From positions 364,707 through 428,706 of the forward strand of contig NZ_KI912094.1 of NCBI RefSeq assembly GCF_000517025.1: DNA of 64,000 nt. Direction: 5' to 3'. The notes below the pieces were generated by a model, which did not search any database, had not been told where the DNA came from, and saw nothing but the letters and a program-made list of their open reading frames with translations. Source of the stretch: Halonatronum saccharophilum DSM 13868. GTDB taxonomy: Bacteria > Bacillota > Halanaerobiia > Halobacteroidales > Halobacteroidaceae. Position 1 is the stretch's first letter. Each line of letters starts with the position of its first letter. The position numbers were made by a program, and so were the translations under genes. Below, piece after piece: positions 13,684-54,865 of this stretch.

Positions 13684-13938
13684 TTATGCACCTTTAAGTT
13701 CTTCTGCCATCTCTTCTAAACATCCAGAACAAATAATCTTTCCTTTAAAATCAACTGTATCTCCTGCTTCGCCACAGAAAGTACAAGCTGGCTCATATTT
13801 TTTAAAAATAACCTTATCATTATCTACATAAATTTCCAATGGATCTTTAGTGTCAATGTTTAAAGTTCTCCTTAATTCGATTGGAATTACCATTCTCCCT
13901 AAATTATCTACCTTTCTTACAATACCTGTTGATTTCAT
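13684..13938 (-). CDS. AbrB-family transition-state regulator, paralogue 1
   Basis: An 84-residue DNA-binding protein. Residues 1-50 are almost a standard AbrB swapped-hairpin domain (STGIVRKVDNLGRMVIPIEL, then RRTLNI, LEIYVD). The C-terminal half is not the B. subtilis multimerisation domain but a small zinc-ribbon-like segment with C52/C55 (CTFCG) and C70/C73 (CSGC). AbrB proteins repress stationary-phase and sporulation genes during growth. It is the most divergent of three tandem copies. No clear sigma-A promoter or Spo0A box is seen upstream, but TGATAGTCTATCA at 13970-13982 is a small palindrome that could be an operator. Confidence 0.9.
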   Translation of the reverse strand: MKSTGIVRKVDNLGRMVIPIELRRTLNIDTKDPLEIYVDNDKVIFKKYEPACTFCGEAGDTVDFKGKIICSGCLEEMAEELKGA

Positions 13939-14136
13939 TTCTATTATCCCCCTTTAGGATATTATTTTATGATAGTCTATCACGATTTTAGAATTTTAAA
14001 ATGTGATTCTTAATTCGTTGATAACTTGCTTATACCTTATCGAGGGGGATCTTCTTATTACTAAAACTAAAAAGCCCCCATTTAACCACATCATTACAAA
14101 ATTTGTATTTTGAATTAAGTATAATGATCAAACTAA

Positions 14137-14385
14137 CTAACCAACCATCTCACCTAGACATTCTTCACAGATAACCTTGCCCTTAAATTCAGTTACATCT
14201 CCAGCGTTACCGCAGAAGATACAAGCCGGCTCATATTTTTTAAATATAATTTTATCACTATCTACATAAATCTCTAACGGATCTTTGATATCAATCCCTA
14301 ACGTCCTTCTTAATTCGATAGGAATTACAATCCTACCTAAATTATCCACTTTTCTTACAATACCTGTTGATTTCATATATTTCAC
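14137..14385 (-). CDS. AbrB-family transition-state regulator, paralogue 2
   Basis: An AbrB N-terminal domain (MKSTGIVRKVDNLGRIVIP) plus a four-cysteine C-terminus (CIFCGNAGDVTEFKGKVICE, then ECLG). The initiator is M1 or M4; MKSTG at 14376 aligns with the paralogues and is favoured. Its own promoter with a Spo0A box lies immediately upstream (14404-14462), so it is transcribed separately from the third copy. It very probably represses growth-phase genes and is itself shut off by Spo0A~P at sporulation onset. Confidence 0.92.
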   Translation of the reverse strand: MKYMKSTGIVRKVDNLGRIVIPIELRRTLGIDIKDPLEIYVDSDKIIFKKYEPACIFCGNAGDVTEFKGKVICEECLGEMVG

Positions 14386-14403
14386 TCCTCCTTTTTTATT
14401 TTA

Positions 14404-14462
14404 TAAGACACGCTTCGACATTTCTTTGGATAAATTATATCAGTTAGTCCAACTTATGTCAA
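14404..14462 (-). promoter_or_regulatory. abrB-2 promoter with tandem Spo0A boxes
   Basis: On the minus strand TTGACA (14462-14457) and TATAAT (14439-14434) are 17 bases apart, a consensus sigma-A promoter. Just downstream lie a perfect 0A box TGTCGAA (14420-14414) and, 10 bp further on, TGTCTTA (14410-14404). This places two boxes over the initial transcribed region, as at B. subtilis abrB, which Spo0A~P represses. Confidence 0.8.
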
Positions 14463-14538
14463 GATATTTTTTCCAAGAATTTTTTTGCACTAATTACTTA
14501 TAAATGCTAATAAGTTTTTACTTATGAAATGACTTGTA

Positions 14539-14778
14539 TTAGTTAGCTATTTCATCCAAACATTCTAAACAAACTATCTTTCCTTTAAACTCTGTTACAT
14601 CCCCAGCATTATTGCAGAAAGTACAAGCTGGTTCATACTTTTTAAAGATAACTTTATTAGCGTCTACATAAATTTCCAATGGATCTTTTATATCAATCCC
14701 CAAAGTTCTTCTTAACTCGATCGGAATTACAATCCTACCTAAGTTATCCACTTTCCTTACAATACCTGTTGATTTCAT
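14539..14778 (-). CDS. AbrB-family transition-state regulator, paralogue 3
   Basis: Same architecture as the other two: AbrB swapped-hairpin DNA-binding domain, then a C-terminal CTFCNNAG ... CLEC zinc-ribbon-like part, about 79 residues. The start at ATG 14778 is chosen over the upstream GTG 14814 because AAAGAGGTG is well spaced from it and the product then aligns with its paralogues. It has its own promoter and tandem Spo0A boxes. The three copies probably arose by tandem duplication, and copies 2 and 3 also share their upstream region. Confidence 0.92.
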   Translation of the reverse strand: MKSTGIVRKVDNLGRIVIPIELRRTLGIDIKDPLEIYVDANKVIFKKYEPACTFCNNAGDVTEFKGKIVCLECLDEIAN

Positions 14779-14806
14779 AAAATATTGCACCTCTTTCTTT
14801 TGTTTT

Positions 14807-14868
14807 TTAGACACTTTTCGACATTTTTCTTACATATGAATTATATCAATTATTCCAACTTGTGTCAA
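14807..14868 (-). promoter_or_regulatory. abrB-3 promoter with tandem Spo0A boxes
   Basis: On the minus strand TTGACA (14868-14863) and TATAAT (14845-14840) have a 17-base spacer. A perfect 0A box TGTCGAA lies at 14823-14817 and a one-mismatch box TGTCTAA at 14813-14807, 10 bp apart. The layout is nearly identical to the abrB-2 promoter. Confidence 0.85.
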
Positions 14869-49702: not shown

Positions 49703-51388
49703 TTAGAAGTTGATGCTAAATCCACCAGTAATACTTTGAGTATCGAAAGAAGTTTCCTCATCTGCACCAGTAAAGTCAGTTCTTTCAAGGTTAAGTGTAG
49801 CAGCAGAAGAGTCAGTTACTTTGTACTCTAATCCTGCATTAGCAGTAGTATTTCTTCCTGCTTGGTCTACTCTAGCTTCCATATCAGCAAAATTATATCC
49901 AGCATTTAATGATAATCTGTCATTTACTACATAAAGCGCACCAATACCAGCTTCAGTATTAAGAGCTCTATTGTTATCTCCATCAAAGATAGTTGCTACC
50001 TTAGCTTCTGGAGTAAATTGAATTCCAGCGAAGTTAAGTTCTGTAGCATAAGCTGCACTTAATACCTTATCGTCTAAATCGTCTGAGCTATCGAAATCAT
50101 AGATAGCTGCTAAGTTAAGGTTTCCTAGTTCTTTGTTCCCTTCAACATATCTTACTTCATTCTTAGAGTTAACTTCATACTCATAGTTACCAAATACGTC
50201 TACCCCAAAGATAGTATAAGGGTTTTCATCACTTACTTCTGCAGCTAAGATTACTTCATCTACATCATCATAGCTTTCATAAGTTACTCCTACTTCTACT
50301 TTACTAATATCAGTAGCAGCACTTAAGTCATAACCTTTTCTATCTGCTTCAAAGTCTTCATCAACTTGAATTCCTACAAAGTTAGCTGTATTTTCATAGT
50401 TACCAGCTAATCTAAAGATTCCTAGATCTCTTTGTCCACCCAGTTTAAATAGTCTTCCATTTAGATTAGAATCACTAGCTGCAAATTCACTCGTAAAGTC
50501 AATATCCATCATATTAAATTCAGTATCCATACCAGCAATTACATTTCTACCTTCTTCAGCCCACTCTGCACCTAAGAAAGCATTTAATGGTAGGTTAAAT
50601 AGACCTTCTTGCTTAGCGCCAACACTTGTTACGTCTTCTTCATCTCTTCCTACTGCTACTGTAGAGTTTCCAGCATTAAGAATAATTCCATCTATATTAT
50701 CCTCATCAGCAAATAGGTAGTCTTTCCAATCTAAATCTTGTTCATCTCCAATAGTAGCTACAAAATCTTCAGTAGTTACAGAACCAGAGATACTATCTAG
50801 TTCAAAGTTAGTTCCTTCTTCTTCAGACCCGAAGTAATTTGCAACTCCAGCTAAGCTTAAGTCAGCAATTACTCCATCCTTTTCAATATTTACATCAAAT
50901 TCTGCAAAGTGCTTGAAGAACTCTTCTGCACTGATTACTTCATCTTCATCAATATCAAATGGATTTTCATAAGCTACTTCTTCGTTTCCACCAACAGTTA
51001 CATTGCTATATTCTACACCAGTTTCACCTGAGATAGTTACAACTTCTAATCCAGCTAACCTTGAATCAATAGCTGCTAATTCATTGTCAAATTCAGCTGC
51101 TAATTGATTAATTACCTCAATTACCTCTTGGCTTAACTCTGAATTTTCATTTTCAACCTTTTCAACAACACGAGAAGTCAATACAGCAACTTGATATCTA
51201 CTTAGAGATTCTTCACCTCTATAAGTTCCATCTCCATACCCCTCAAGCAACCCTGCAGTTGCTACTTGCTCTAAAGCATCATGTGCCCAGTGATTTGCAG
51301 GTACATCATTGAAAGGATTTGCCATTACTGGCATTGTCATAGTGAACACCAACGCTAATGCTAATACTAATGTTAAATTCTTTTTCAT
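49703..51388 (-). CDS. SLH-domain outer-membrane porin (OmpM-like)
   Basis: 561 residues: signal peptide (MPVMA|NP), one SLH domain at about 24-75 (FNDVPANHWAHDALEQVATA, GYGDGTYRGEESLSRYQ), a short coiled coil to about 115, then a barrel of about 400 residues ending in F (GGFSINF). In diderm Firmicutes such proteins tether the outer membrane to peptidoglycan through the SLH domain and act as porins. D145-E156 (DIDEDEVISAEE) fits the 12-residue EF-hand calcium loop. Very clean signal, strong ribosome site (AGGGGG) and a long structured leader suggest high expression. Tandem Spo0A boxes lie further upstream. Confidence 0.92.
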   Translation of the reverse strand: MKKNLTLVLALALVFTMTMPVMANPFNDVPANHWAHDALEQVATAGLLEGYGDGTYRGEESLSRYQVAVLTSRVVEKVENENSELSQEVIEVINQLAAEFDNELAAIDSRLAGLEVVTISGETGVEYSNVTVGGNEEVAYENPFDIDEDEVISAEEFFKHFAEFDVNIEKDGVIADLSLAGVANYFGSEEEGTNFELDSISGSVTTEDFVATIGDEQDLDWKDYLFADEDNIDGIILNAGNSTVAVGRDEEDVTSVGAKQEGLFNLPLNAFLGAEWAEEGRNVIAGMDTEFNMMDIDFTSEFAASDSNLNGRLFKLGGQRDLGIFRLAGNYENTANFVGIQVDEDFEADRKGYDLSAATDISKVEVGVTYESYDDVDEVILAAEVSDENPYTIFGVDVFGNYEYEVNSKNEVRYVEGNKELGNLNLAAIYDFDSSDDLDDKVLSAAYATELNFAGIQFTPEAKVATIFDGDNNRALNTEAGIGALYVVNDRLSLNAGYNFADMEARVDQAGRNTTANAGLEYKVTDSSAATLNLERTDFTGADEETSFDTQSITGGFSINF

Positions 51389-51587
51389 AATTAATATTCC
51401 CCCTAGATTATTTATTAGTTTGATTTTTAGTATATAGAGATACCTTAGCTTAAGCTCTATAATCAGAGGGTAATATCCAAATTGAGTGGCCGTGTTTCCT
51501 CAATATCTTCTTACTCTTCTGATTATATTCTCTTTGCTAAAACATCTTTGTTAAGTATTCACCGCTCTTTAAATTATTCTCACCGGC

Positions 51588-51627
51588 TAATCTCTAGGGT
51601 TCACCTCCTTTTTTACCAGAGAGATTA
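51588..51627 (-). promoter_or_regulatory. Hairpin presenting an SD-like sequence in the porin leader
   Basis: As minus-strand RNA, UAAUCUCU (51627-51620) pairs with AGAGAUUA (51595-51588), and the loop displays AAAAAAGGAGGUGAACCC. It lies about 210 bases before the start codon and no start codon follows it at ribosome spacing. Its 16S complementarity is near maximal. This fits a 5' mRNA stabiliser (STAB-SD) rather than a translation start. Confidence 0.55.
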
Positions 51628-51659
51628 AGAGAGGATAGTACTTAAACACGAGGTTAATA

Positions 51660-51919
51660 AATTGGCTAATGCCAATTTGAGCTATGAGCTATCAGCTATG
51701 AGCCTTCAGCTAAAAACTTTAAAACAACTAAAACAAAATCATTTTCGACAAAATTCGACAATTGGAGTTAAAAAATATATGTATCAGAAACTCCTTAGAG
51801 GAGACTCGTTCTATAACAGTCTTTTATATAATCCCCACTAAGCAATCACCGATACTAAACTCATTACTTCTGTAAGCCACTTTTTTATTTTTAATTCTTA
51901 ACTCTTAATTTTTAATTGC
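51660..51919. repeat. Repeat-rich region upstream of the SLH porin
   Basis: It contains a small hairpin AATTGGCTAATGCCAATT (51660-51677), a heptad array GAGCTATGAGCTATCAGCTA and on (51680-51713), and a second array of TTAATTC/TTAACTC units (51890-51919). The two arrays differ in flavour. The rest of the 51389-52118 gap holds the porin leader and the Spo0A boxes listed separately; no gene was seen. Confidence 0.6.
51744..51760 (-). promoter_or_regulatory. Tandem Spo0A boxes upstream of the SLH porin
   Basis: Two perfect 0A boxes TGTCGAA (51760-51754 and 51750-51744 on the minus strand) are 10 bp apart, the same spacing as at the abrB promoters here. They are about 360 bases upstream of the porin start. 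A matching sigma-A promoter was not identified with confidence. Confidence 0.6.
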
Positions 51920-52118
51920 TTTATAATATGTATCTATCCATATTATAATTATTTATCTTTTATTAATCAATGGTAATTAGAACTAAATAAGATCAATTAC
52001 TTTCAATGAAAAAAGTTTTTGCCCTTCTCTTAAAATTCATTATCAATACTAACTAGATTATAGTTGTTTTTTTAATATTAATCAATGGTAATTGATAGTA
52101 AAAATTTAAATCTATACA

Positions 52119-52148
52119 TAAAAAAACCCCCAAGTAAGTACTTGGAGG
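52119..52148 (-). terminator. Intrinsic terminator after the 371-residue barrel gene
   Basis: CCTCCAAGTA / TACTTGGGGG forms a 10-bp stem (one G-U) with a T-run of eight on the minus strand, 20 bases past the stop. Confidence 0.8.
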
Positions 52149-52167
52149 TCAATTAATATAGATTTAA

Positions 52168-53283
52168 TTAAAACTTAAGATTAACTCCTGCCATTATAGA
52201 TAGTTCATCGTCATCCTCATTATCTCCACCGTAGATCTCATAGCTAAGCTCTGAGATAAAGGTTAAATCTTGGCTTAATGGCATCTCATAAGTTGCATAT
52301 GGCTTAAGAACAGTTTCTGAATAGTCTACTTCCATAAAATCAAGATCCAAATCATACATTCTATAAGTAAAATCTGCACCTACATTAAGGCCAGGAAGAG
52401 ACTCTACTTCCATCTCTACATAAGGCTTAATTCCAAAAACAGTTAGTGAAATATCACCTTTCGTCGCATATACAAATAGTTGGTCATCATCATATTCATC
52501 AATTGCAGTATCAAAATCAATTCCACCCATAACTCCAAAAGTAAATGCTCCTTCTACTTTCTCTAACTTAGGAGTTACTTCTAAAGTTATAGTTCCATCA
52601 TCAGCATCAGTATGTTTGCTATATTCTAAGCTATTATCAGCTACAAGAGTAGCACCGTTTCCTAGAACAGTATCTACATTATAGAAAGCTTCAAGACCTA
52701 ATGTCTTATCATCGAAATCAAATTCAAACTCAGCATCTTCTAGTTCATAGTCAGCTTTAAATCCAGCAGTTGCATCTTGAGATACTGCTAATTCATACTT
52801 AACAAATGGATTAATTGTTACAGTATCATCAGACTCGTCTCTAATTACAAAGTTATTATCAGACCCTAAAGTCCAACCAGGAGCTAAATTCATCGCATAG
52901 TCTCCATAAAACTTAATAGCATAATCATCTTCATAATCTCCAACTTGATCTCCAGCTTGGAACATAAAGTCATCATCTAAATCACCCATCACACCTAAAG
53001 TGAAGTTTTCAACTCCAGTATACTCAAAATTTGGGCCAACTCTAAATAAAAAGTCGCCATCATCATTTCTTTCTACATTAAATAGAGAAGTTAATTCCAT
53101 ATCCTCCGGCATATCAACAAATGCTAACTCTCCATCAGCAAGTATTAAATTTACTTCAGAATCACCATCTACAACATCAACCTCTACTTTAGAATCTAAT
53201 TCACCTTCTACAGCTGCAAAAGCTGGTACAGCCAATGCTAAAACTAAAGCCAAAACAATCATTACAGAAAATTTCTTTTTCAT
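52168..53283 (-). CDS. Predicted outer-membrane barrel protein, paralogue A
   Basis: 371 residues with a signal peptide (VLALAVPAFA|AV) and an acidic, strand-rich body ending in aromatic F (MAGVNLKF). It is clearly paralogous to the next gene: shared DMELTSLFNVE, RVGPNFEYTGVENFTLGV, GDLDDDFMFQ and INPFVKYELAV. The many Asp/Asn-rich turns suggest a barrel with acidic loops, in keeping with a halophile. No named family was recognised. It has its own promoter, so it is not only a read-through product of the paralogue. Confidence 0.8.
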   Translation of the reverse strand: MKKKFSVMIVLALVLALAVPAFAAVEGELDSKVEVDVVDGDSEVNLILADGELAFVDMPEDMELTSLFNVERNDDGDFLFRVGPNFEYTGVENFTLGVMGDLDDDFMFQAGDQVGDYEDDYAIKFYGDYAMNLAPGWTLGSDNNFVIRDESDDTVTINPFVKYELAVSQDATAGFKADYELEDAEFEFDFDDKTLGLEAFYNVDTVLGNGATLVADNSLEYSKHTDADDGTITLEVTPKLEKVEGAFTFGVMGGIDFDTAIDEYDDDQLFVYATKGDISLTVFGIKPYVEMEVESLPGLNVGADFTYRMYDLDLDFMEVDYSETVLKPYATYEMPLSQDLTFISELSYEIYGGDNEDDDELSIMAGVNLKF

Positions 53284-53445: not shown

Positions 53446-54570
53446 TTAAAACTTGTAGTTAACTCCTACAGTAACTTCATATTCTCCATCAAAATCAATG
53501 TCATCTAAGATAGTGCTTAACTCATAGCTAGCTTCAGTAAAGAAAGTAGTATCTTGAGCTAAAGGCATTTCATAGTTAACATATGGCTTGATAACAAGCT
53601 CAGTATTATCAATCATATCAGAAGCATCTCTACCATCATTAGCTTCTTTTGAAGCAGTAAGGCTATTTTCTGAACCTACAGCTACACCAGGCATAAGAAC
53701 TACTTCATAATCAGCATAAGCCTTAGCAGCAAAGTGAATACCATCAAAGTCTGGCATAACTAATAACTCATCATCATCATAATCATCATTATCCATAGCA
53801 CCAGTAATACCCATTGTAAAGTTCTCTACACCAGTATACTTAAGGTGAGCCGAGATAATTAAATCAGTTTCAGAATCATCACCATCATGTGTAAACTCAA
53901 GGCTATTATCAGCAGTAAATGTTAAATTATCTGCTAATACAGTATCTAGATTAAAGAATGGCTCAAAAGTAAATTCTGTATCATCAAAATCAAACTCAAA
54001 TTCTTTATCGCCTAATTCGTAATCAGCATTGAATCCAGTAGTCATATCCTCTGCTACTGCTAACTCATACTTAACAAATGGATTAATTGTTAAAGAATCA
54101 TCTTCTTCATCTCTAATTACGATATTATTTTCAGAACCTGCAGTCCATCCTGGAGCTAAAACCATTTCATAGTCAGCAAAGAACTTAATTGCAAAGTTTT
54201 CTTCACCATCATCAGTCTTACCCTCATCAACTTGGTCTCCAAATTGGAACATAAAGTCATCATCTAAGTCACCAATAACACCTAAAGTAAAGTTTTCAAT
54301 TGCAGTGTACTTAAATGACGGGCCAACTCTAAAAAGCAAATCATTATCGTCATCCATCTCTACATTAAATAAAGAAGTTAATTCCATATCTGCTGGCATC
54401 TCAGCAAATACAACTTCTCCATCAGTAAGTACTACAGTAGTTTCTGCTCCATCTTCTCCTTCTTCAATTACAACTTCTGAAGTTGCTTCTCCTTCTATAG
54501 CAGCAAAAGCTGGAACAGCCAACGCTAAAACTAAAACAAATGTAAGTAATACAGAAATCTTTTTATTCAT
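53446..54570 (-). CDS. Predicted outer-membrane barrel protein, paralogue B
   Basis: 374 residues, signal peptide (LALAVPAFA|AI), acidic strand-rich body and C-terminal F (VTVGVNYKF). The first 200 residues align closely with paralogue A; the later part is more diverged (MITGAMDNDDYDDDELLV-like acidic turns). Its leader contains the hairpin-presented SD-like block shared with the SLH porin. Probably an abundant porin-like protein; substrate unknown. Confidence 0.8.
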   Translation of the reverse strand: MNKKISVLLTFVLVLALAVPAFAAIEGEATSEVVIEEGEDGAETTVVLTDGEVVFAEMPADMELTSLFNVEMDDDNDLLFRVGPSFKYTAIENFTLGVIGDLDDDFMFQFGDQVDEGKTDDGEENFAIKFFADYEMVLAPGWTAGSENNIVIRDEEDDSLTINPFVKYELAVAEDMTTGFNADYELGDKEFEFDFDDTEFTFEPFFNLDTVLADNLTFTADNSLEFTHDGDDSETDLIISAHLKYTGVENFTMGITGAMDNDDYDDDELLVMPDFDGIHFAAKAYADYEVVLMPGVAVGSENSLTASKEANDGRDASDMIDNTELVIKPYVNYEMPLAQDTTFFTEASYELSTILDDIDFDGEYEVTVGVNYKF

Positions 54571-54645
54571 TATTATTTCCCCCTAATTATATTCTTATTT
54601 TAGAATTTTAATTTGTAACATATAGTCTCTCATAAAATAAAATTC

Positions 54646-54676
54646 TGGCTTATGGGGTTCACCTCCTTTTTCGCCA
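54646..54676 (-). promoter_or_regulatory. Hairpin presenting an SD-like sequence, paralogue B leader
   Basis: UGGC (54676-54673) can pair with GCCA (54649-54646), with AAAAAGGAGGUGAACCCC in the loop, about 85 bases before the ATG and close to the likely 5' end of the transcript. Downstream AGAAUUUUA and UAAAAUUCU form another stem. The SD-like block matches that of the SLH porin leader over at least 16 bases. Confidence 0.55.
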
Positions 54677-54865
54677 ATAATAAACACTATATCTTAATTT
54701 CTACAAAGACTAGATTTCTCCTTCTTTTTTCAGAATGTTTTTTAATATTTTTTTAATGTTTTTAATAAAAAAAGAATTTTAATTTAGCCTTACATCTTAT
54801 GTGGGCTTTGTAGAGGTGTTATCCTTTTGAATATATCTGTTGCCTTTTGATTTATTCTTTAATTG

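Follow-up and report, generated by a model that had tools for sequence, protein, structure and literature searches.

The site studied here is TGTCGAATTTTGTCGAA, a perfect tandem pair of TGTCGAA boxes at 51744-51760 on the minus strand of the window, i.e., of the whole stretch of 64,000 nt of DNA that was analysed. The pair precedes the gene of an SLH porin of the OmpM type, and the distance from the first base of the site to the ATG of the porin is 372 nt. The non-coding gap holding the boxes is 779 nt long (51389-52167). On the far side of the gap lies an ORF (52168-53283, minus strand) that reads like a secreted beta-barrel protein and gave neither a Pfam nor an NCBIfam match. The preliminary description of this DNA reported TGTCGAA twice at a 10-bp spacing in the long non-coding gap, and both copies were confirmed, at 51754-51760 and 51744-51750 (minus strand). 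The features of the locus and two control sites elsewhere in the window are the following:

49703-51388, minus strand: SLH porin (OmpM-type) of 561 aa, with a Pfam SLH match
51390-51642, minus strand: 5' leader of the porin mRNA, a structured RNA; scored at 97.2 bits (E 5e-17) by a covariance model that had this sequence in its building set
51399-51403, minus strand: GGGGG, core of the porin Shine-Dalgarno sequence
51458-51470, minus strand: arm CCCTCTGATTATAG, able to pair with the Shine-Dalgarno region; predicted duplex of -18.0 kcal/mol within this genome
51484-51501, minus strand: invariant hairpin GAGGAAACACGGCCACTC, with a GAG/CUC stem and the loop GAAACNNGGNNA
51602-51611, minus strand: leader element AAAGGAGGTG, 223 nt before the ATG
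51744-51750, minus strand: second 0A box TGTCGAA, at a 10-bp period with the first box; sequence match and shuffles, kept in 7/8 family genomes
51754-51760, minus strand: first 0A box TGTCGAA, promoter-distal to ompM; sequence match and shuffles
51770-51779, minus strand: tract TATATTTTTT upstream of the boxes, found in 5/7 genomes
51774-51779, minus strand: TATATT ending 13 nt before the first box, with no good -35
51942-51970, minus strand: promoter-like TTGATT-17-TATAAT, recognized by its consensus only, some 180 nt upstream of the boxes
52057-52085, minus strand: second copy of the promoter-like TTGATT-17-TATAAT; consensus match only
14807-14823, minus strand: control, tandem 0A boxes with 1 mismatch that follow the -10 of an abrB paralogue by 16 nt
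14404-14420, minus strand: control, tandem 0A boxes with 2 mismatches, after the -10 of a second abrB paralogue

The perfect tandem occurred once in the window, compared with none in 100 dinucleotide shuffles, and it is the only one in the 2.88 Mb of the genome. When up to two mismatches were allowed, three sites were found in the window against 0.08 expected, a number that none of the 100 shuffles reached; the other two sites are the promoters of the two abrB paralogues. A lone TGTCGAA box was unremarkable in the window (5 seen vs. a mean of 1.8 expected). Genome-wide, tandems with up to two mismatches showed no excess, with 11 sites against 34 for the backward pattern, an imperfect control that contains no CpG. 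Thus, the weight of the argument rests on the perfect site and its conservation. Only four of these 11 sites, those of the two abrB genes, an NhaC-like gene, and the porin, are near genes with an evident abrB-like arrangement or a promoter match. At the NhaC-like locus (L109, positions 1091-1107; C8 of this genome), TGTCGAAAAAAGTCTAA is found 7 nt after a TATAAT, upstream of the transporter ORF. An origin of the boxes from a repeat element was rejected, with no copies in the gap and a single perfect tandem per genome.

A search of 61 genomes identified OmpM orthologues in 60, and the upstream DNA was read by region for 13 genomes of the order, eight from the same family (f1) and five from a sister family (f2). 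A perfect tandem was present upstream of the OmpM orthologue in seven of the eight f1 genomes (G000 and G002-G007), at positions -297 to -529 relative to the start codon; this is far for a classical Spo0A site and counts against an operator. Searched as whole genomes, each of these seven contained exactly one perfect tandem, always at ompM. The f1 DNA around the boxes is otherwise not alignable, and, within 420 nt upstream of the leader, all common words of at least 12 nt shared by at least five of the seven genomes overlap the boxes. In the eighth f1 genome, G001, no perfect tandem was found genome-wide; loss of sporulation was rejected as the cause, since this strain has both SpoIVA and Spo0A.

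The sister family keeps a weaker site in four of five genomes: three carry TGTCGAA with AGTAGAA ten bases on, and a fourth carries TGCCGAA. The block around the f2 box reads GCAGGAATATGTCGAATTAAGTAGAA, and in three f2 genomes the pattern GCAGGANNNTGTCGAA matches once per genome, upstream of ompM. In G010, also of f2, only a degenerate box remnant was recognized by eye upstream of the porin, and the GCAGGANNNTGTCGAA match of this genome, located before an rpiB-like gene, was taken as chance. The preliminary description had asked whether porins of other Halanaerobiales keep the boxes; they do in seven of eight f1 genomes and, in degenerate form, in four of five f2 genomes, but not in G001 or outside the order, where 17 porin loci of other families in the class and phylum were read and none showed a tandem box. 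The only perfect tandems outside f1 among the 61 genomes were two in G045 and one in G060. Both G045 tandems (L034 and L042) seem, by eye, to be part of a palindromic repeat with TTTACTTGTCGA, and that of G060 adjoins unrelated genes; they neither support nor harm the case for a Spo0A operator.

All 13 order genomes contain both Spo0A_C and SpoIVA. When Spo0A of this genome was aligned with the solved DNA-binding domains 1fc3 and 1lq1, the stretch of its DNA-reading helix, NTTASRVERAIRHAIEV, proved identical to that of 1fc3. Spo0A of C. difficile and B. subtilis is reported to read TGTCGAA and to contact G2, C4, and G5 (PMC3485338); these three bases are retained in both boxes before the porin.

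The abrB genes of the order provided a positive control, in which 28 of 30 loci were readable and two were left out, having no fitting start codon. In 22 of the 28, the box start lies 12-22 nt after the -10 (rows read by eye; chance level not computed). A script tally gave 13 loci with a tandem of up to two mismatches; a perfect box within 220 nt was counted at 18. The boxes of the second abrB paralogue in the window (14404-14420) lie 13 nt after TATAAT, and the earlier statement that the porin boxes have the same spacing as at abrB is true for the abrB genes of the same genome. Three AbrB-like genes stand in a row in the window (13684-14814, minus strand), two with Spo0A boxes after their promoters and the third without. 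At abrB, boxes downstream of the promoter have been described as a roadblock (PMC12090719). The ompM site has the same box sequence, spacing, and orientation as the abrB operator. However, the abrB boxes lie 12-22 nt after a strong TTGACA-17-TATAAT, whereas the ompM boxes lack a good -35; in addition, ompM is a gene of a structural envelope protein and abrB that of a regulator.

Direct control of the porin by Spo0A, as put forward in the preliminary description, is thus supported by the conservation of the boxes, by Spo0A in 13/13 genomes, and by the grammar shared with abrB, whereas the lack of boxes in G001 speaks against it. We propose, with a probability of roughly 0.65, that the tandem boxes are a Spo0A~P operator that controls the OmpM gene, most likely by blocking transcription. 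Judged from the sequences compared, binding of Spo0A to the boxes is quite probable, and repression as the direction of its effect appears to be about an even call.

The direction, which the preliminary description did not state, was approached through the promoters around the boxes. In five of the seven f1 genomes, a TATATT is located with its end 12-13 nt ahead of the first box, and a sixth has CATATT. As a candidate sigma-A -10, it occupies the position of the -10 in abrB genes, but no good -35 accompanies it, and such a -10 was found at 6.5% of random anchors. The earlier remark that no confident promoter adjoins the boxes was a fair one. Promoter matches upstream of the boxes were present in all seven f1 genomes with the tandem. 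The gap of the porin also contains a 54-nt direct repeat (51934-51987 and 52049-52102, 115 bp apart) whose two copies both include TTACCATTGATTAAT and a TATAAT, and doubled promoter-like elements, 103-110 bp apart, occur in G002 and G001 too.

In the stretch from the boxes to the leader, no promoter match scoring at least 9/12 was found in six of the seven f1 genomes, and L003 has a weak match. The promoter scan argued against a promoter between the boxes and the leader as the general layout, the exceptions being L013 and, weakly, L003. Because the boxes stand just before the transcribed leader with no good promoter between them in six of the seven f1 genomes, repression is favoured; occlusion or a roadblock, the mode known from abrB, has a higher probability than activation, with the promoters themselves only predicted.

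The best surviving alternative is that the same Spo0A operator activates, so that porin transcription would go up at the stationary transition, perhaps together with sigma-H. Matches to the sigma-H-like consensus AGGAWWW-N13-15-GAAT were found ahead of the leader in 6 of the 13 order genomes, where 0.01-0.05 were expected in each; those of the form AGGAWWW-N14-GAAT are upstream of ompM in L011-L014, L006, and L008. Activation is also favoured by L013 of the sister family, where a good TTGAAA-18-TATAAT lies between the boxes and the leader, which speaks against repression; this match and the weak one of L003 are as compatible with activation or with no role as they are with repression. In addition to the result of the promoter scan in f1, two observations oppose activation. 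In G003, the outer strand of leader helix P1 (helix defined by eye) is only 13 nt away from the second box, a distance too short for a promoter that leaves this strand intact. In three f2 genomes, the box is inside the spacer of TTTGCA-18-TAGAAT, the nearest promoter-like match, which suggests occlusion. We therefore consider an activating operator unlikely.

It is still less probable that the boxes are the operator of another regulator that reads a similar sequence. The f1 block includes the T tract upstream of the boxes, a feature not shown for abrB operators, and the sister-family block has its own reading, as given above. However, the 0A core and period match exactly, the abrB genes of the same genomes share the grammar, and the Spo0A helix is unchanged. 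Finally, although TGTCGAA alone is common and the boxes are absent in G001 and outside the order, chance or functionless leftover sequence is highly improbable in view of 0/100 shuffles and of one site per genome at the same gene in seven of eight genomes that cannot otherwise be aligned in their upstream DNA; by these sequence counts, the tandem before the SLH porin is not due to chance.

Downstream of the boxes, the order genomes have a common leader that comprises AAAGGAGGTG, the hairpin GAGGAAACNNGGNNACTC, and the Shine-Dalgarno sequence CTAGGGGGA. The hairpin pattern gave 61 matches in 49 of 59 genomes of the class, and the backward control gave 0. All 61 hairpins lie 78-144 nt upstream of an ORF of the outer-membrane type (N-termini judged by eye): 53 precede SLH-type porins and eight precede porin-like genes without SLH, again by eye. 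AAGGAGGTG is located upstream of the hairpin in 48 of the 61. In 398 genomes of the phylum, the combined pattern had 31 matches in 30 genomes (backward pattern, 3); with the exception of L130, the 30 loci read precede SLH or porin-like genes (29/30), and 21 of those 29 are outside the class, in ten families. The covariance model with strict filters detected the leader in 8 of 101 phylum genomes, six of them outside the class and all before porin-like ORFs, and did not detect it in G013, a genome of the class. Scans of the window stretch and of 26 loci with relaxed E-values gave a few sub-threshold overlaps and no Rfam 15 family above its gathering score. A second porin-like gene in the window (53446-54570) has a leader at 54570-54708 (minus strand) in which AAAAAGGAGGTGAACCCC is present and the GAGGAAAC hairpin is absent, with a model match of 36 bits. 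Three Orenia-like genomes also have a second such leader match, 4-6 kb from ompM.

The structure of the leader was evaluated on an alignment (A3) of 44 of the 61 leaders, from which near-duplicates, divergent rows, and the eight leaders without SLH had been dropped. The proposed pairs were standard in 84.8% of cases, compared with 43-50% when slid. Covariation was 0.195 vs. 0.155 (sd 0.006) in shuffled alignments, and none of 500 shuffles reached it; in the same 44 leaders, the double-change pairs (14 vs. 11.5) and the pair types were not above shuffles. Helix P1 showed double changes in nine of ten pairs. In the helix covering the Shine-Dalgarno bases, variation is confined to one side, and the flanking part of this helix has double changes in three of five pairs. 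The predicted duplex of the arm with its own Shine-Dalgarno sequence was -12.7 kcal/mol vs. -6.2 with a shuffled arm; with arms swapped among genomes it was -11.3 kcal/mol, so most of the duplex signal reflects conservation rather than co-change. In the hairpin stem, five further pairs were paired in 60-77% of 84 contexts, in which two sites are counted twice (L120/L147 and L122/L141), against 43-58% in shuffled ones; with the stem slid by +1, two positions were 67-69% paired. The single-sequence fold was mildly better than that of shuffles (z -1.6). On this model, the leader is predicted to mask the ribosome-binding site.

Judged from the published description, the leader probably corresponds to the SLH motif reported by Stav et al. 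(2019; PMC6429828) or is a close relative of it. The SLH motif was presented as a riboswitch candidate with 80 examples from Synergistaceae, Clostridia, and Negativicutes. Like the leader described here, it is a cis leader before genes of SLH proteins and others, and it occurs in Firmicutes and Synergistaceae; unlike it, the motif precedes SLH genes in about 60% of cases vs. 53/61. Halanaerobiales are unnamed in the portion of that paper available. The OmpM of Negativicutes has the same combination of an SLH domain and a barrel, and Halanaerobiales were named among the OmpM-bearing lineages (PMC10628300); neither "sporul" nor "promoter" occurs in the text of this paper. In the literature searched, we found no paper that treats OmpM and Spo0A together.

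Under the proposed repression, Spo0A~P would occupy the tandem boxes as a dimer of DNA-binding domains and would block ompM transcription by occlusion or roadblock, as at abrB. The rise of Spo0A~P at the onset of sporulation would then mean that less of the tether is made, and we hypothesize that this loosens the tether for engulfment. Any porin message made would still have the structured leader, able to hide the ribosome-binding site, and may thus be subject to a second, translational control. More tentatively, and possible rather than probable, both layers may belong together: in diderm spore formers Spo0A would directly silence the tether as sporulation begins, so that the outer membrane is loosened from the cell wall before the septum forms and engulfment starts. 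An ancient leader RNA, common to outer-membrane-protein genes of several diderm Bacillota lineages, would at the same time sense the state of the envelope and set the translation of the same message.

In conclusion, a conserved and genome-unique putative Spo0A operator at the gene of the outer-membrane tether is a real finding at the level of sequence comparison. With the leader, the known range of a scarcely described RNA element grows to include Halanaerobiales and porins that lack SLH domains, and its position beside a Spo0A site would place the porin message under two layers of control. The Spo0A site makes it directly testable how a diderm spore former keeps, loses, or rebuilds its outer membrane during sporulation. 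The putative operator suggests that sporulation and outer-membrane anchoring are wired together in two-membraned spore formers.
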